64,000 nucleotides of DNA from Actinomycetes bacterium (GTDB lineage: Bacteria > Actinomycetota > Acidimicrobiia > Acidimicrobiales > Acidimicrobiaceae): positions 1 through 64,000 of the forward strand of contig JAKAZZ010000001.1 in assembly GCA_021826315.1 (NCBI GenBank). The letters are read 5' to 3'. The position numbers were made by a program, and so were the translations under genes. This document shows, piece after piece, positions 18,018-28,402 of this stretch (the stretch's first letter is position 1; each line of letters opens with the position of its first letter). A model generated the notes under the pieces. The model was not told where the DNA came from and searched no databases. It was given only the letters and a program-made list of their open reading frames with translations.

Positions 18018-18848
18018 CTAGAGCGAATCGGGCGATAGGCGTAGTAGCGTTCGAAGTTGTTTCGAAATGTGTCTTACGCGATAGGCTAGGTAGCCACTTG
18101 CAAGTGCGATGGTTGTTACCCCAATTGCAAGTGCTACCAAAGCTGTCGGCCTGGCATTCTTTACTCTTCCTTCGCGAACTCGAACTGGATTCGAAAAGGT
18201 CTTAATCTCCCAGTTCCGTTCCTTAGCGAGCTTTGCTAAGACTCTGTCGGGATTTACCACCACAGGGTGGCCGACCGCCTCCAGCATTGGAAGATCGGTG
18301 TACGAATCTGAATAGGCGAAGCTTTCGGATAGAAGAAAGCCGTGCTGTTCAGCGAGGCGTTCCATGGCAACCGCCTTGTAGGGGCCGTATGCGTAAAAAG
18401 CGACCTCTCCCGTGTACCGTCCATCTTCGTCGACCTTTGACTCAGTTGCGATAACGCCATCTACAGCAAGGCGATCGCCAAGTGGTTCAACGATCTCGAG
18501 CGGCGAAGCGGAGACTATGAAGACCATATCTCCATTTTGTTTGTGCATCTCAATTAAGTCGAGAGCTTCCTTGTAGATGAGAGGCTCCACTATTTCGGTC
18601 ATGGTTTCAGCGACAATCGCCGAGACTATGGATCGCTCCCATCCCTTGGTGAGCGACAGAGCGGTCTCTCGCAGCTTCGTGAGTTGCTTTTCATTGGCGC
18701 CGGCGTACTTGAATACAAACTGGGCGTAGACGGAGCGCAAAATAGTTCGCCTAGAGAGCAAACCTTCGTTATAGAAGGTTCTGCCGAATGCGAGCATAGA
18801 CGCCTTCGCTATGACGGTTTTATCGAGATCAAAGAAGGCTGCCTTCAC
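18018..18848 (-). CDS. HAD-IB (SerB-like) phosphatase with C-terminal membrane helix
   Basis: A 276-residue HAD phosphatase. Motif I is FFDLDKTVI (Asp7, Asp9), motif II VSASP, and motif IV YSDSYTDLPML. The actinobacterial HAD-IB group to which it belongs (near M. tuberculosis Rv0505c/SerB1) includes proteins with a membrane tail; here a hydrophobic helix spans about residues 236-258. The motif I residues fit a phosphatase rather than a mutase. Phosphoserine is one possible substrate, but membrane attachment suggests a lipid or cell-surface phosphate ester, which is inference. Confidence 0.8.
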   Translation of the reverse strand: MKAAFFDLDKTVIAKASMLAFGRTFYNEGLLSRRTILRSVYAQFVFKYAGANEKQLTKLRETALSLTKGWERSIVSAIVAETMTEIVEPLIYKEALDLIEMHKQNGDMVFIVSASPLEIVEPLGDRLAVDGVIATESKVDEDGRYTGEVAFYAYGPYKAVAMERLAEQHGFLLSESFAYSDSYTDLPMLEAVGHPVVVNPDRVLAKLAKERNWEIKTFSNPVRVREGRVKNARPTALVALAIGVTTIALASGYLAYRVRHISKQLRTLLRLSPDSL

Positions 18849-18893: not shown

Positions 18894-21068
18894 TCATCTA
18901 CCTGCATGTAGCCATCCTCTCAGATTTCCACCAAGCGTTCTTCCATGTTCTTTTGACAGAAGTGAATTTGAATTGCCGCACTTAGGACTCACGATACAGC
19001 TCGGACATCCATCTTCACACGGACACTCCTCTAGATTCTGTATCGAAGTTGCTAGCAACTCGCGCCATCTCGCAAAGGATGCACGAGCCACTCCACTTCC
19101 TCCGTCACTCCCGTCATAGATCGCAATCGCTCCGCCGTTTGTGATGATATCGACTCCGTTGTTATATGGGCCATTTATCACAAATGAGACACCTCCGACG
19201 TCCCAGCGATCACATAGTGAGACGGTCGAAAGTACTCCGATTGTGGCGTGTTCGAAGGCGTGAAGGGCAGCGCCATATTCGCTGATCGGAATCTCTGAAA
19301 ATAAGTAGAAAGGGATCGCGAATAGAAGAGCTTCGCTCTGTAGGGTCTTTGGTTCGAGTTCGTAGTCTATAAATTCAACTACTTCTCCCCTCCCTTGCAA
19401 AAGGTCATATCCAGTAAAGAATTCTGTGACTTCAATCTCGGATAAAGAAACGAGTCCTTCTAAAGATTCGTCTTTCTCTATGGTTTTGAGAAGGCTATAT
19501 TGAGACTCGATACGGGGTTTGGTATACCTCTTAGAACTCTCTGAGGCGCAGTAGACGAGGCGTTGGTCAAAGTCAATGTCGGTACCGCGGTGTCGTCGTC
19601 CTCGGTGGCGGTGTATGGCCCCAAGGTAGAAGTTGAAAAAGAGCCTTGAGCTATCAAAGATTTCGAGAAGCTCTCCGTCGTCGGTGATGAGGGTGTAGGT
19701 AACGCTGTCTCCACCCCTTAGGCCGCCAACCTTGCTCGGTCGAAGCGCGCCAACAAAGAGGTGCCCTGATTTAGTTGCGACTAATTTTCCTTGTTGCTGA
19801 TTTTCTTCGAGTAGATCTTGAATGAGTCGCTGGTGTTGATGGTCGTGCGATAATTGCTCTGGTTTGATTGAAGTCTCATCTGCAGCGCAGAGTAGTTGGT
19901 ACTCCATGACTTTGGGGTTTTGTGGATTTATCGCAGCCGACTCGTCGCGGCGATCGTTGATTGAATTTATATTTCTAACGACCCATTGATCAAGGTTGTC
20001 GCTGTCAGGTAGCAGTACCAGGGCTGAATCGTTCGTTGAAAGCGTTGAGATGTTGCGACGAATCTGAGCGATCGTCTTTGGTATGCCGAGGAAGATCACA
20101 AGGTCAGATTGCGGCAGCTCTAGCGAAAGTTGAGACGTTGCAACGGCGACCTTGAACTCCCCCGAGGCAATCTCTTCTCTGATATCGTCACGCACTTCAT
20201 CGATGTAGCCACCGCGGTAGAGGAGTGGTTTTATTTCGGTACCACCATTGTGGCTTGATATGGAAGTAATAGTCTCGGCGATTACTTCGGCCTGACTTCG
20301 CGAAGAGGTAAGTATGGTCGTTCGAAGGCCACTCATTTCGAGTTGAACGCCAATGGATGCGGCAAGGAATGAGGGAGATGCAACGGCATTCGCAGCCTCG
20401 ACTGAAGCCGTGAGACATGGTATTTCTATGCCATCTATCATCCAAAGTTCGCGACATTCGGCCGGATCCGAATCGATGATTGCGCCAAATAGAGACCTTG
20501 CGTTTCCAAGATATATTGCGGTGGCGTTGAAGGATAGGTGGTTGCCCTCCTTGGCGATCGATAATCGTTTGAGGATGTAGTAGAGATGGGATCCAAGGAC
20601 ACCACGAAAATTTGAGAGATCGAAGAGACTTACAGTCGAGACCGCCTCTAAAAGACGAGTGAATCTAAAGCTGTCTGGCAAGATCTTGCGGTGAAGGATC
20701 TCCGGCGTGCATACCAACAGCTTTCGTCGCGATCCAAGGGTTGCCATGTCTTTGATAGATATTTTGTCGGTTAGGTCTAGTGCAAAGTCGGGTCCAAATC
20801 GCCCCTTAGCACTCTCTACTACAATCTGGGCTTCGTACTTGCTTGAGGTGAGTACGAGAGTGGTAGAACCGAGATCTGCGCGTCTCTTGGCATAGCCCAA
20901 GGTCGAGTCAATCGCAGCTGATGACCTATCCACGTTGATGACAAAATTGTGGGCATTATCGGACACTTCGCCATCGAGGTGTGGGGTGATCCTAAATTCG
21001 GTCTGTTGGAGGAAGGGCCACTTACTGGTGATCGCTGTTACGAGTTCGTTATTTGAGTCTCGTTTCAT
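18894..21068 (-). CDS. MrfA/YprA-like helicase homologue lacking ATPase motifs
   Basis: A 724-residue protein related over its length to MrfA/YprA-type superfamily 2 helicases with a C-terminal DUF1998/MZB zinc domain. The fold is recognisable (LLVCTPEILHRKILP, then FRGVLGSHLYYILKRL), and the four-cysteine zinc site CPCEDGCPSC...CG is intact near the C-terminus. The motor motifs are not: no GKS/T Walker A exists in the N-terminal part, the DEAH position reads FDLSNF, SAT reads NATAI, and the QxGRxGR arginine-finger region reads RRNISTLSTND. It probably cannot hydrolyse ATP and may act as a DNA-binding or structural partner. The frame is open throughout, so it is not an obvious pseudogene. Confidence 0.75.
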   Translation of the reverse strand: MKRDSNNELVTAITSKWPFLQQTEFRITPHLDGEVSDNAHNFVINVDRSSAAIDSTLGYAKRRADLGSTTLVLTSSKYEAQIVVESAKGRFGPDFALDLTDKISIKDMATLGSRRKLLVCTPEILHRKILPDSFRFTRLLEAVSTVSLFDLSNFRGVLGSHLYYILKRLSIAKEGNHLSFNATAIYLGNARSLFGAIIDSDPAECRELWMIDGIEIPCLTASVEAANAVASPSFLAASIGVQLEMSGLRTTILTSSRSQAEVIAETITSISSHNGGTEIKPLLYRGGYIDEVRDDIREEIASGEFKVAVATSQLSLELPQSDLVIFLGIPKTIAQIRRNISTLSTNDSALVLLPDSDNLDQWVVRNINSINDRRDESAAINPQNPKVMEYQLLCAADETSIKPEQLSHDHQHQRLIQDLLEENQQQGKLVATKSGHLFVGALRPSKVGGLRGGDSVTYTLITDDGELLEIFDSSRLFFNFYLGAIHRHRGRRHRGTDIDFDQRLVYCASESSKRYTKPRIESQYSLLKTIEKDESLEGLVSLSEIEVTEFFTGYDLLQGRGEVVEFIDYELEPKTLQSEALLFAIPFYLFSEIPISEYGAALHAFEHATIGVLSTVSLCDRWDVGGVSFVINGPYNNGVDIITNGGAIAIYDGSDGGSGVARASFARWRELLATSIQNLEECPCEDGCPSCIVSPKCGNSNSLLSKEHGRTLGGNLRGWLHAGR

Positions 21069-21094: not shown

Positions 21095-21760
21095 TTAGCG
21101 ATTTCCCACAAGAATTGACTTAACTTCACTCTCGGATTCGACGTTTACTAGGACGACTACTTCGTCACCGCTACGAAGGATGGTGTCGCCGCGTGGAACA
21201 ATGACGTTCTCTTCACGAATGATCGCGACGATCGAAGCCTCTCGGGGAAATGGAAGTTGCGATAGCTCCATGTCATTTGCTGGGGAGTTGTCGGCTAGCG
21301 TTACCTCCACTAGGCGAGCTCCACTTTTTTCAAAGGAGAGAAGTCGCACAAGTGACCCCACCGAGACCGCCTCTTCAACTAGAGATGAAAGCAGGTGAGG
21401 TGTTGATACAGATACGTCAACTCCCCAAGTCTTATTGAAGAGCCAGTGGTTGCGAGGGTTATTTACTCGAGCAACGACCCTAGGTACCATGAACTCTTGC
21501 TTTGCTAAGAGGGAGATTACTAAGTTGTCCTCATCGTCACCGGTGGCCGCAACTACTACGTCCGCATCCGATAGTCCAGCCTTTTCAAGTGATGAGACTT
21601 CGCATGCATCGGCGATCAAGTAAGTGCATTTGATGTCAGGATTTAGTTTTTTGGCCTCATCGCGGTTCTTTTCGATTACGAGAACTTCGTGACCTGCATT
21701 ACCAAGATCTTCTGCAATGAAGGAACCGACACTTCCAGCGCCTGCGATTATTACCTTCAT
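21095..21760 (-). CDS. TrkA-family K+ transport regulator (CeoC-like)
   Basis: A 221-residue cytoplasmic regulatory subunit with an N-terminal RCK/TrkA-N Rossmann domain (GAGSVG, residues 7-12, acidic VIEKNRDE after strand 2) and a C-terminal TrkA-C domain. These bind NAD(H) or nucleotides and gate a Trk/Ktr potassium channel. It overlaps the neighbouring TrkA gene by 4 bases. The pair plus the divergent permease copies the ceoB-ceoC (Rv2691-Rv2692) locus of mycobacteria. No membrane Trk subunit is encoded in the window. Confidence 0.88.
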   Translation of the reverse strand: MKVIIAGAGSVGSFIAEDLGNAGHEVLVIEKNRDEAKKLNPDIKCTYLIADACEVSSLEKAGLSDADVVVAATGDDEDNLVISLLAKQEFMVPRVVARVNNPRNHWLFNKTWGVDVSVSTPHLLSSLVEEAVSVGSLVRLLSFEKSGARLVEVTLADNSPANDMELSQLPFPREASIVAIIREENVIVPRGDTILRSGDEVVVLVNVESESEVKSILVGNR

Positions 21761-22416
21761 TTGTGGTGGTCTCCCATTCTAGAAATTGTGGAATCGAGGG
21801 AGATAATATTGTCGCGCTCGATCAGAAAGTGGAGGATATCGCCGTCTTGAATAACAATCTCGGGTGTATAACGCCTGGTAGTTGTTCCGCGCGTTAGAAG
21901 AATAGGCTCGAAGTTCGCCTTGAGAGCGCTGTACCTATGGCCTATCAAAGCTTCTGGAACACCTCGCTCTAGGAGTACAAATTGTCCATTTGAGTCGATC
22001 CAATCAGGCTTTGCCTCGGTGTCGAATAGCCTACGCATAGCCTGTTCTGTCGTCCAGGTTACGGTCGCGACCGTTGAAATCCCAAGTCTGCGGTAGATCT
22101 CCGCGCGCTTAGGATCGTAGATTCGGGCGACTACCTTCGGGACCTCGAAGGTCTCTTTAGCAATTCTTGCAGTCAAGATATTGGAGTTGTCGCCACTCGT
22201 AACGGCTGCTAGAGCATCTGCATGTTCCACACCTGCGGCCTTTAGGCAGTCCCGGTCGAAGCCGAGACCTTCGAGTGACGAACCAGAAAAATTAGGTGGT
22301 AATCTACGGAAGGCGGCAACGTTTTTGTCGATTATGAAGGACGTATGACCCTCCTGATCGAGTCGCGCCGCTAGCTCGGAGCCTACTCGCCCACACCCAA
22401 CTACTATCACGTGCAA
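21757..22416 (-). CDS. TrkA-family K+ transport regulator (CeoB-like)
   Basis: A 219-residue RCK/TrkA protein with the nucleotide loop GCGRVG (7-12) and a C-terminal TrkA-C domain. It is the first gene of the two-gene unit and overlaps the next by 4 bases, suggesting the two assemble into one regulatory ring on a potassium channel. It is transcribed divergently from the permease/OB-fold gene, as ceoB is from Rv2690c in M. tuberculosis. Confidence 0.88.
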   Translation of the reverse strand: MHVIVVGCGRVGSELAARLDQEGHTSFIIDKNVAAFRRLPPNFSGSSLEGLGFDRDCLKAAGVEHADALAAVTSGDNSNILTARIAKETFEVPKVVARIYDPKRAEIYRRLGISTVATVTWTTEQAMRRLFDTEAKPDWIDSNGQFVLLERGVPEALIGHRYSALKANFEPILLTRGTTTRRYTPEIVIQDGDILHFLIERDNIISLDSTISRMGDHHK

Positions 22417-24955: not shown

Positions 24956-25047
24956 TTAGTTATCTTTATTGATTGCGTAAGTTGTCGTCTATCGAGTAGC
25001 TTAAGTAGTTCGTTGGTACATGGCGAGATTGGTTGTACGGTAATCAG

Positions 25048-27780
25048 ATGGCAAAACCACTTGTAATAGTTGAGTCCCCCACTAAGGCGAAGACCATCTC
25101 TCGTTTTTTGGGCGACTCCTACCTTGTTGAGTCGTCAATTGGCCACATACGTGACCTTCCAAAGAGTGCGGCCGAGATTCCAGCAGCCTATAAGAAAGAG
25201 GCTTGGTCGCGCCTTGGCGTTGATGTGAATAATCGCTTTAAACCCCTATATGTCGTCTCAGATAAGAAAAAGCAACACATATCTCACTTAAAGCAGCTCG
25301 TAAAAGAGGCTAGCGAGATCTATCTAGCGACAGACGAGGACCGCGAAGGTGAGTCAATCGCTTGGCACCTAATGGAAGTCTTGTCCCCCAAGGTACCAGT
25401 GCGTCGCATGGTCTTTCACGAAATAACTAAGGCGGCAATCGACGACGCGATCGCCCATACCCGTGAGATCGATACCAAGCTGGTCTCTGCGCAAGAGGCG
25501 AGGCGAATCCTAGATCGTCTGTATGGATATGAGGTCTCACCTGTACTTTGGAAGAAGATCAAGCCTGCTCTCTCTGCGGGAAGAGTCCAAAGTGTGGCCA
25601 CTCGAATCTTGGTTCAGCGTGAACGGGAGCGAATTAACTTCGTTTCAGCTTCGTACTCGTCTATCAAAGTTGGGGCAGCTAAGGAGAAAAGTAGGTTTTT
25701 AGCCTCCCTTCAACACCTAGATGAAACCCGAGTTGCGACTGGCAGAGACTTTGGTGCTGATGGCGTACTAAGTGGCGCCGACGGCGCCAAAGCGGCCATA
25801 ATCTTGGCAGTGGGTGACGCCGAGATATTGTCGAGCGCACTAACGGGCAAGATGCTACAGGTCTCTTCGATAGAAGAAAAGCCGTATCGTCGCTCGCCTG
25901 CACCTCCCTTTAGAACCTCCACTTTGCAACAGGAGGCGGGACGAAAGTTACGCTTTTCATCGAGTCGTACCATGTCTGCGGCGCAAAGGTTATATGAGGC
26001 CGGCCACATTACTTATATGCGTACCGACTCGACCTACCTCGCCGATGTTGCAGTTGCATATGCCCGAAAGGTGATCTCAGAGCTTTACGGCAGTAGCCAC
26101 CTACCGAAGAGTTCTAGAGACTATAAAAATAATGTCAAGAATGCGCAAGAGGCTCACGAAGCCATAAGACCATCTGGGGACAATTGGATTCACCCTAATG
26201 AGATGGCACGACTCGTTTCGAGTGACGAAGCCCGCCTCTATGAATTGATTTGGAAGCGCACCATCGCTTCACAGATGACCGATGTTTTGGGTACGACGGT
26301 AACGGTAAAATTTGTAACTCCAATCTCAGACGTTCCAGAACTTGGAGCGCAAGGTGGCAAGCGACTTGCTCCAAGTGAAGCTCGCTTTTCATCGAGTGGT
26401 CGTGTTATTAGCCATACCGGATTTATGGCCGTCTACGTCGAAGACTCCGACGATAATTCTGCTGACGAAGAAGATGCAATTCTTCCTGGATTTGTTGAGG
26501 GTGAGCTGATTCCGATTGAATCGGTCGACGTCAATTCTCATGTAACGAATCCTCCCTCTCGTTACACGGAGGCATCTTTAGTAAAAGCACTGGAAGACCT
26601 TGGTGTTGGAAGGCCAAGTACCTATGCGAGTATTATTACAACGATTCTCGACCGTGGGTATGTCTTCAAGAGGGGTAGTGCTCTTGTCCCTTCGTTTGTA
26701 GCCTTTTCAGTCGTCAACCTTCTCGAGCAGTTCTTCAGTGACTTGGTCGACTATAACTTCACGGCTGAGCTTGAAAATACGCTTGATCAGATTGCTACGG
26801 GTAACACGCCGGCGATCCCTTATCTCGAGAAGTTCTACTTCGGTAATGGTCGTCCTGGCCTAAAAGATCAGGTCGCAACTCAGCTTGATTTAATTGATCC
26901 TCGACAAATAAATTCGATTCCGGTTGGTGTTACGCCGGACGGCGAATTGATCGAAGTACGAGTGGGTCGATTTGGGCCATTCCTAAGTGCTGGCGATCGT
27001 AGTGCTCCAATTCCAGATGGTATGGCACCGGACGAATTGACCTTCGATAAGGCCGTTGAACTACTTGAAAAGGGTTCGGGTGATCGAATACTCGGCGTGG
27101 ATCCTGATAACAATCTGCCAGTAGCGGTAAAGGTTGGCCGCTTCGGCCCATTCGTACAACTTGGTGAAGCCGAACTGTTGGGTAAAGGAGAGAAGCCAAA
27201 GACGGCATCTCTTTTCAAGTCGATGGAACCAGAGACGATCACTCTCGAAGATGCCTTGAAGCTACTTTCGTTACCTCGACTCGTTGGCGTAGAACAGAGT
27301 AGCGGCGAAGAGGTGTTTGCTACGAACGGTAAGTTCGGCCCGTATATCAAGAAGGGTCGAACATCGCGTTCACTAGAGGGTGAAGAGCAGATCTTTTCAG
27401 TCACGGTAGAAGAGGCACTTGAGATAATTGCTCAACCGCAGAGTCGTGGAGGTCGTAGGAGCGCCACCTCGGTTGAGGTTGGTACTGATCCAGACGGGAA
27501 AAGGATAACTCTTCGGTCAGGTAAATTTGGCCCATATGTGACCGATGGCGAGGTGAATGCTACGGTAAAGCAATTCGAAGTTGACATGGGAATCACCGTG
27601 GAGCGCGCATCGGAGCTATTGGCTGAGAGGCGGGCTGCTCTTTTAGCTAGCGGTGGATCTACGACGAAGAAGCCTGCAAGTCCTCGGGCCAAGACGGCTT
27701 CAACTCGATCTAGCAGTACGACCAAGACTAAGTCTGCGACTGGAACGAAGAGATCGACCTCAACCAGAAAAAAGAGCTAG
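25048..27780 (+). CDS. topA: DNA topoisomerase I
   Basis: A 910-residue type IA topoisomerase that relaxes negative supercoils. The Toprim domain opens the protein (LVIVESPTKAKTI, then DEDREGESIAWH) and the nucleophile is Tyr323 in ITYMRTDST. The C-terminus has no zinc fingers but at least four repeats of the actinobacterial type (VGRFGPFL, VGRFGPFV, NGKFGPYI, SGKFGPYV) and a Lys/Arg/Ser/Thr-rich tail, which in mycobacteria aids DNA binding. The ATG at 25048 is preferred to the upstream TTG because the Toprim strand starts there. It precedes tmk and holB in one unit. Confidence 0.97.
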   Translation: MAKPLVIVESPTKAKTISRFLGDSYLVESSIGHIRDLPKSAAEIPAAYKKEAWSRLGVDVNNRFKPLYVVSDKKKQHISHLKQLVKEASEIYLATDEDREGESIAWHLMEVLSPKVPVRRMVFHEITKAAIDDAIAHTREIDTKLVSAQEARRILDRLYGYEVSPVLWKKIKPALSAGRVQSVATRILVQRERERINFVSASYSSIKVGAAKEKSRFLASLQHLDETRVATGRDFGADGVLSGADGAKAAIILAVGDAEILSSALTGKMLQVSSIEEKPYRRSPAPPFRTSTLQQEAGRKLRFSSSRTMSAAQRLYEAGHITYMRTDSTYLADVAVAYARKVISELYGSSHLPKSSRDYKNNVKNAQEAHEAIRPSGDNWIHPNEMARLVSSDEARLYELIWKRTIASQMTDVLGTTVTVKFVTPISDVPELGAQGGKRLAPSEARFSSSGRVISHTGFMAVYVEDSDDNSADEEDAILPGFVEGELIPIESVDVNSHVTNPPSRYTEASLVKALEDLGVGRPSTYASIITTILDRGYVFKRGSALVPSFVAFSVVNLLEQFFSDLVDYNFTAELENTLDQIATGNTPAIPYLEKFYFGNGRPGLKDQVATQLDLIDPRQINSIPVGVTPDGELIEVRVGRFGPFLSAGDRSAPIPDGMAPDELTFDKAVELLEKGSGDRILGVDPDNNLPVAVKVGRFGPFVQLGEAELLGKGEKPKTASLFKSMEPETITLEDALKLLSLPRLVGVEQSSGEEVFATNGKFGPYIKKGRTSRSLEGEEQIFSVTVEEALEIIAQPQSRGGRRSATSVEVGTDPDGKRITLRSGKFGPYVTDGEVNATVKQFEVDMGITVERASELLAERRAALLASGGSTTKKPASPRAKTASTRSSSTTKTKSATGTKRSTSTRKKS

Positions 27781-27793
27781 GTGGATCTTCACG

Positions 27794-28402
27794 GTGTTCA
27801 TCGTCTTTGAAGGTATCGATGGCGTCGGAAAGAGTACGCAAATCGAATTGCTCACCGGCGCTCTAGTCGAGTTAGGGTATGACGTTGTTTCGACTCGCGA
27901 ACCTGGGGGTACCGAGGTCGGAGAAGAGATCAGGGCTTTGCTTAAGTCCGATTATTCGATGGGTATTCGTTCAGAGTTGCTGCTCATGTTGGCTTCACGA
28001 AGCCAACATGTTGATGCAGTTATTCGGCCCGGCATTGAACGAGGATGCGTTGTCATCTCTGACCGGTTCGAAGCATCCACCTTCGCATATCAAGGCTACG
28101 GTCGAGGAGGGGATCTTTCGAGACTGCGGGCTATTAACGAATTTGCAACGGGCGGCCTAAAGCCAGACGTCACTTTTCTGATCGATAGGGAGAGCTCCTT
28201 TCGGGCAACGTTCGATGAAGATCGTTTTGAGAGCGCAGGGATTGAGTTCGCGAAACGAGTTCGAGAAGGCTATCTCGAGCTATCTAGGGAAGAGGGCTGG
28301 GTTGTCATCGATGGAGATCGTGAGATCAATACGATTCAAGGTGAGATCCTTGAGCACCTCCGCCTTCTTGGATTGACAAATATTAAAGAGGGGAAGAGTT
28401 GA
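27794..28402 (+). CDS. tmk: Thymidylate kinase
   Basis: A 202-residue kinase making dTDP from dTMP. The P-loop FEGIDGVGKST opens the protein (5-15), followed by STREPGGTEVGEEIR and the DR(F/Y) motif ISDRFEASTFAYQG. The frame is open far upstream into topA, but the GTG at 27794 has AGGTGG nine bases before it and begins at the first strand, 13 bases after topA. The holB gene begins one base after its stop, a common tmk-holB pairing. Confidence 0.94.
   Translation: MFIVFEGIDGVGKSTQIELLTGALVELGYDVVSTREPGGTEVGEEIRALLKSDYSMGIRSELLLMLASRSQHVDAVIRPGIERGCVVISDRFEASTFAYQGYGRGGDLSRLRAINEFATGGLKPDVTFLIDRESSFRATFDEDRFESAGIEFAKRVREGYLELSREEGWVVIDGDREINTIQGEILEHLRLLGLTNIKEGKS

Follow-up and report, generated by a model that had tools for sequence, protein, structure and literature searches.

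What kind of protein is encoded by a helicase-like gene whose reading frame is open but whose ATPase motifs are gone, and why has such a gene been kept? This question is raised by a frame in the window, the whole stretch of 64,000 nucleotides that was analysed from an actinomycete of the family Acidimicrobiaceae. An earlier note on this DNA had described the frame as an open one of 724 residues, with the architecture of YprA/MrfA helicases and an intact zinc site but with all core ATPase positions lost, and had suggested that selection retains it for a non-catalytic role, for instance the recognition of damaged DNA or the regulation of a second helicase. The frame, which is indeed open, and its surroundings are as follows.

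18894 to 21068, minus strand: putative pseudohelicase, a SftH/YprA/TIGR03817 homologue; open frame of 724 aa with an ATG start and a full-length structural match to MrfA
18018 to 18848, minus strand: HAD-IB hydrolase, next gene downstream (45 bp gap) and conserved neighbour (TIGR01490, 3e-55; synteny)
21095 to 21760, minus strand: TrkA-type RCK protein 2, upstream (26 bp gap) and conserved neighbour (Pfam TrkA_N/TrkA_C; synteny)
21757 to 22416, minus strand: TrkA-type RCK protein 1, conserved neighbour (Pfam TrkA_N/TrkA_C; synteny)
25033 to 27780, plus strand: topA, anchor of the SftH/TIGR03817 neighbourhood (TIGR01051, 758 bits; synteny)

According to the synteny comparison, the gene order is TrkA1, TrkA2, pseudohelicase and HAD-IB, adjoined by an APC transporter, topA, tmk and holB. 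A promoter scan returned no more sites than are seen in shuffled sequences. Two further observations were made in this region. The thymidylate kinase gene by topA (27653 to 28402) evolves fast between near relatives, with 59-66% identity and a dN/dS of 0.15-0.20, while most of its neighbours exceed 90% identity between the same relatives; its called start overlaps topA, and part of the divergence may come from a wrong start. Just past the window (G000:C6:65167-66477) lies a 1513-residue helicase frame, common to G007 and G008, which was judged to be Lhr-like from its length and its partial TIGR03817 match.

The family of the 724-residue protein can be seen from both sequence and fold. Pfam MZB matches it at 4.3e-17, and the sequence of PDB entry 6znp (B. 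subtilis MrfA/YprA) matches residues 116-692 at 9e-32. TIGR03817 gives 279.7 bits over residues 114-708, below its cut-off of 874.1, as is also the case for intact relatives from the same taxonomic family. An AlphaFold2 model (pLDDT 80.9, pTM 0.82) was built from an alignment in which the window protein was joined by two near orthologues and by eight intact relatives, so that intact helicases were included in its input. Foldseek places MrfA at the top for this model (6znp_A, 8.7e-45), and VIA-align fits model residues 4-716 to residues 5-749 of 6znp_B with Z 27.8 and rmsd 5.8 over 627 aligned residues. As modelled, the protein is a full-length YprA-type fold and no fragment; the predicted fold would consist of two RecA-like lobes and a C-terminal canopy of winged helix, OB and MZB, as in the SftH/YprA family, and the MZB/DUF1998 domain carries the tetracysteine zinc site. 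The helicase architecture described earlier is therefore confirmed by the MZB, TIGR03817 and 6znp matches together with the full-length MrfA fold.

Within this fold, four motifs are degenerate.

20907 to 20966, minus strand: region aligned to Walker A (residues about 35-54; motif alignment), VINVDRSSAA for ATGTASGKS
20607 to 20624, minus strand: degenerate motif II (residues 149-154), FDLSNF for DExHxx (DELHMF in intact relatives)
20514 to 20528, minus strand: degenerate motif III (residues 181-185), NATAI at the SAT position
20028 to 20060, minus strand: degenerate motif VI (residues 337-347), RRNISTLSTND for QxGRxGR (QQAGRAGR), with two residues deleted

Walker A is thus absent, as had been claimed, and the other three strings are present and align where they had been placed. 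A regex scan of the whole window protein found no GK[ST], DExH/DExD, S[AG]T or QxxGRxGR, and the alignment and structure comparison with MrfA gave no substitute GKS/T or DExx in the protein. All 43 intact homologues have the Walker A Lys, D/E/H of motif II, S/T of motif III, G/D of motif V, and Q and both Arg of motif VI, whereas the Walker A Lys occurs in 0/11 members of the dead clade. Among the nine full-length members of the genus, the Walker Lys, D/E/H of motif II, S/T of motif III, and Q and the last Arg of motif VI are never present; the Glu of motif II has always become Asp, and the last Arg of motif VI is deleted in all. Motif Ia, part of the DNA track of SF2 helicases, is lost too. 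By descent and fold the protein belongs to the SftH/YprA lineage; because SF2 catalytic motifs I, II, III and VI were looked for and found lacking, it is not filed as a functional SftH/YprA helicase.

Could the protein still be an ATPase, acting through unconventional residues such as the NSGQ of the G003 group, or through another ATP site? Orthologues of the G003 type still have a loop, GPPNSGQ, that is reminiscent of Walker A. However, this loop has no Lys, motif II has no DE pair, SAT is missing and the last Arg of motif VI is deleted, and neither GK[S/T] nor DExH stands anywhere in the window protein, which makes this explanation extremely unlikely. As the genome is a draft of 110 contigs, a sequencing, assembly or gene-calling artefact, with a hidden frameshift masking real motifs, was also considered. 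Its probability is practically negligible: the same losses are found in the independent assemblies L021 and L022 and in eight more genomes, and the start lies only 26 bp from the TrkA stop, too close for a Walker A segment to have been missed.

The gene is present in 11 of the 12 genomes sampled from the genus (window included), with the same losses in all 11, so that orthologues sharing these losses were found genus-wide. Because they are common to all orthologues of the genus, the losses cannot be put down to a sequencing artefact or to chance. Identity to the window protein is 76% for the G008 orthologue, 70-71% for G007, and 31-37% for G001, G002, G003, G004, G010 and G011. The orthologues of G005 and G006 are contig-end fragments, and the full-length set of the genus accordingly numbers nine, all with open frames, of 718-796 aa and with 31-76% identity to the window protein. 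In the twelfth genome, G009, the gene is missing, and tblastn of the gap finds chance matches only (E above 1). Since the gene was lost there, the pseudohelicase is dispensable at least in G009.

The position of the gene was also compared with that in the sister genus g6 of the same family (G016 and G022). There, an intact helicase with STSSGKS, DEAH, SAT and QxGRxGR fills the identical slot by TrkA/HAD-IB, and synteny with these two genomes places the window gene in the topA-side chromosomal slot common to intact orthologues. Therefore, the pseudohelicase is a positional orthologue and no stray paralogue. HAD-IB stays beside it even where a molybdopterin oxidoreductase cluster lies upstream. 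This cluster, read from translations as a ferredoxin-membrane subunit fusion, a catalytic subunit and a chaperone-like gene, is found in L095 (2164-7566) between TrkA2 and the pseudohelicase, and the same insertion is suggested by gap size in L097, L098 and L099; it is not in the window. In G009 (L113, G009:C117, 8416-8967), the gap of 550 bp lies between the cluster and HAD-IB. A TIGR03817 search for a compensating intact paralogue in the 12 genomes of the genus showed that only G010 has a B-type copy. The other TIGR03817 matches in these genomes were set aside as Lhr or DEAD-box-like, judged by length and partial coverage. Additionally, a second YprA-type subfamily, which is divergent and has its motifs intact, was seen in the same taxonomic family (L105, G010:C14, 1490-3937; and G012:C44), within the genus only in G010.

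Apart from the ATPase motifs, several modules have been retained.

20190 to 20219, minus strand: retained motif IVa, YRGGYxxxxR (residues 284-293; alignment of the nine full-length members)
18897 to 19283, minus strand: MZB (DUF1998) domain and C-terminus (residues 596-724; Pfam MZB and conservation count)
18996 to 19025, minus strand: zinc site CPCEDGCPSC (residues 682-691), all Cys kept in 9/9

The zinc site is thus as intact as the earlier note had stated. The dead clade also keeps motif Ib (TPE..H), RG..GS, SR..AE of motif IV, YRGGY....R, and T..L of motif V; in motif IVa, Y284, R285, G287, Y288 and R293 are identical in 9/9 and the same as in intact helicases. Since parts of Ib, IV and IVa survive together with the first half of V, the helicase motifs are not all gone, and the loss claimed for all core positions holds for ATPase motifs I, II, III and VI but not for the other helicase motifs. 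Family-conserved positions, defined from the 43 intact homologues, are kept by the dead clade (9/9) at 36/46 sites in MZB residues 596-724, compared with 0/28 in residues 1-112, the ATP-binding half of RecA1 (Fisher p 2.6e-12). Identity in residues 1-120 is 13-25% in the dead clade versus 39-57% in distant pairs of intact helicases. In WH, OB and MZB the identity of the dead clade equals that of the intact family, and for the two best MZB blocks it is 0.61-0.65 versus 0.62-0.65. Within the pseudohelicase, protection is thus greatest in the MZB/zinc module.

All the dead genes fall into a single clade, whose SH-aLRT support is 100 for all columns of the whole protein and 99 for residues 373-724 alone, the C-terminal half without the ATPase motifs. 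In an order-level sample of 298 genomes, scores against the dead-clade profile fall from 1117 bits within the genus to 416 bits for the next-best match, and no other dead lineage was found in the order, 27/27 of the inspected next-best homologues being intact. One candidate, L126, had appeared degenerate by regex and was rejected, as it reads ASGTGSGKS and SATM. In genus g2, a half-degenerate helicase occupies the TrkA-adjacent slot beside TrkA2 (L108, G012:C111, 238-2655). It keeps SNSGKS, has AEVH for DEAH, and has lost SAT and the arginines of motif VI; the strings NSG, TATA, TP and LDS are common to it and members of the dead clade, and the same genome also carries an intact paralogue of another subfamily. 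Since its placement in the tree is weak (support 70 and 32), this gene may be either an intermediate or a parallel loss. On the best explanation, the pseudohelicase is probably a vertical descendant of an actinobacterial topA-neighbourhood SftH/YprA helicase (TIGR03817), and ATP binding and hydrolysis were probably lost in or before the ancestor of the genus.

The dN/dS of the pseudohelicase is 0.125-0.228 for genus pairs with dS of 0.15-1.0, these closer pairs within the genus having been used because dS is saturated when the window gene is compared with its two nearest relatives; a value below 1, expected if the gene is retained, is thereby borne out. By region, dN/dS is 0.04-0.11 in MZB versus 0.13-0.35 in the N-terminal ATPase half. 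Moreover, 26 positions are fixed in the dead clade in a state that is rare among intact homologues, six of them changed to Lys/Arg (E106K, x127R, Q338R, L487R, x492R and Q517K). For the same pair, dN is 0.178 in the pseudohelicase versus 0.019-0.056 in HAD-IB, TrkA and TopA, and because of this faster evolution than in neighbouring genes, constraint on the pseudohelicase is considered to be partly relaxed.

The faster evolution, the loss in G009 and the variation of catalytic positions between species would suit a decaying gene, that is, an unneeded helicase which drifts and whose frame is open by chance. However, the frame is open in every full-length orthologue across the whole range of identities given above, dN/dS is low (0.13-0.23), MZB is conserved as in intact helicases and 26 positions are newly fixed, so that decay is very unlikely. 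Instead, the substitution patterns point to a constraint that is relaxed but real, with new fixed states. The shared losses, the lack of a substitute site and the low dN/dS support the retention by selection of a dead YprA/MrfA-type helicase. The protein combines a helicase fold, lost catalytic residues and purifying selection, which define the pseudohelicase class; as it belongs to one clade under purifying selection, with 26 fixed residues and with MZB and the zinc site kept, the comparisons of sequence argue that it is very probably a functional ATPase-dead pseudohelicase and no decaying gene.

Taken as a whole, the best explanation (probability roughly 0.7) is a pseudohelicase of SftH/YprA descent that has lost its ATPase and is kept for an ATP-free role, as a passive clamp or platform. 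Since the gene stays intact under selection in 11 of the 12 genomes, its product most likely has a motor-free job. In the YprA-family motor, as a 2025 survey describes it, RecA1 and RecA2 move along ssDNA beneath a canopy that consists of OB, connector and MZB (PMC12458937). With the ATP site gone, what remains is RecA2, YRGGY, the winged helix, OB and MZB, and the surfaces of RecA2, YRGGY, OB and MZB might act as a passive clamp or platform in place of translocation, binding a partner protein or DNA that is single-stranded or branched. By analogy with D. radiodurans PriA, a static DNA clamp or platform would be the simplest reading of the retained modules. That the role is ATP-independent nucleic-acid binding is put forward with slightly less than even confidence, and such DNA binding may be weakened, because motif Ia is also lost. 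More tentatively, what had been the sole SftH/YprA helicase of the whole genus would now be an obligate clamp on nucleic acids, or a platform for partners, that works without ATP, and its RecA and OB regions would have gained basic residues.

A different explanation is that the protein serves a complex as a regulatory or structural subunit, similar to DrmB, and has as its partner a nuclease, the product of the HAD-IB gene or some other helicase. Protection is strongest at the MZB end of the canopy (OB/CON/MZB), and the canopy acts in trans in DrmAB (PMC9142583; PMC12458937); SftH itself is able to bind a partner, DruH (PMC13316683). The adjacency to HAD-IB also holds despite the upstream molybdopterin oxidoreductase cluster, but it is likewise seen with the intact helicase in g6. 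Further, most genomes of the genus are without an active YprA-family partner, G010 alone having the intact B-type copy. The MrfB exonuclease (PF13482) had no match in G000 and 10 other genomes of the genus, with a positive B. subtilis control, and its one weak match is in G009, which is without the pseudohelicase. RecA2, needless for a canopy-only subunit, is still conserved. The subunit explanation is rather unlikely, though it is the main rival of the clamp or platform. Any partner would be of another kind, since most genomes of the genus have no YprA partner and MrfB is missing.

If the clamp or platform reading is true, it shows for a large family that the OB-MZB canopy has its own function, which can be separated from that of the motor. 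A long-lived natural lineage with the motor gone and the canopy kept would be a ready-made separation-of-function experiment, in which intact relatives in the same slot can be contrasted with the dead clade, with the half-degenerate G012 relative also available.

Several known systems can be compared with this protein. M. smegmatis SftH (MSMEG_6160)/TIGR03817 has homology over most of the length, the topA neighbourhood, the order RecA1-RecA2-WH-OB-MZB and the tetracysteine site in common with it, whereas the pseudohelicase is without Walker A, DEAH, SAT and QxGRxGR. MSMEG_6160 likewise stands beside topA. SftH is described in two reports as a monomeric 3'-5' ssDNA translocase and helicase (PMC12458937, PMC13316683). 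B. subtilis MrfA/YprA (PDB 6znp, 6znq, 6zns) shares the fold over 627 residues and the zinc site; however, MrfA works as an active helicase and shares an operon with MrfB, while the pseudohelicase has neither ATPase motifs nor MrfB. Of the kinship with MrfA proposed earlier, the YprA family and fold stand, but the nearest characterised relative by position is SftH rather than the MrfAB pair.

DrmB of DISARM likewise has OB-CON-DUF1998 and no ATPase of its own. As an OB-DUF1998 subunit it modulates DrmA, which is a separate helicase (PMC9142583), and it stands beside DrmA in a defence operon without RecA lobes, whereas the pseudohelicase keeps degenerate RecA lobes at a housekeeping locus. Membership in a defence system was rejected for the window protein, as PADLOC gives only weak DruE and DpdJ fragment matches; none of the PADLOC DrmA/DrmB models reached 0.01.

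A parallel in kind is D. radiodurans PriA, also a bacterial SF2 helicase orthologue whose ATPase motifs were lost lineage-wide while the gene was kept (PMC4504706). It has no ATPase, but its affinity for ssDNA and forks differs from the E. coli value by no more than about twofold, and it makes contact with DnaB (PMC4504706). PriA belongs to a different helicase family, and its DNA and DnaB binding was tested in vitro, whereas the function of the pseudohelicase is inferred only. In the open-access literature, PriA and eukaryotic Utp25 were found as known pseudohelicases, and no earlier report of a dead YprA/MrfA/SftH protein was found there, in agreement with the novelty first claimed for it. 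The passages found in the 2025 YprA family survey mention inactivated nucleases and GTPases but not inactivated helicase cores (PMC12458937). Pseudohelicases as a kind are already known from D. radiodurans PriA; what is new is a pseudohelicase of the YprA family.
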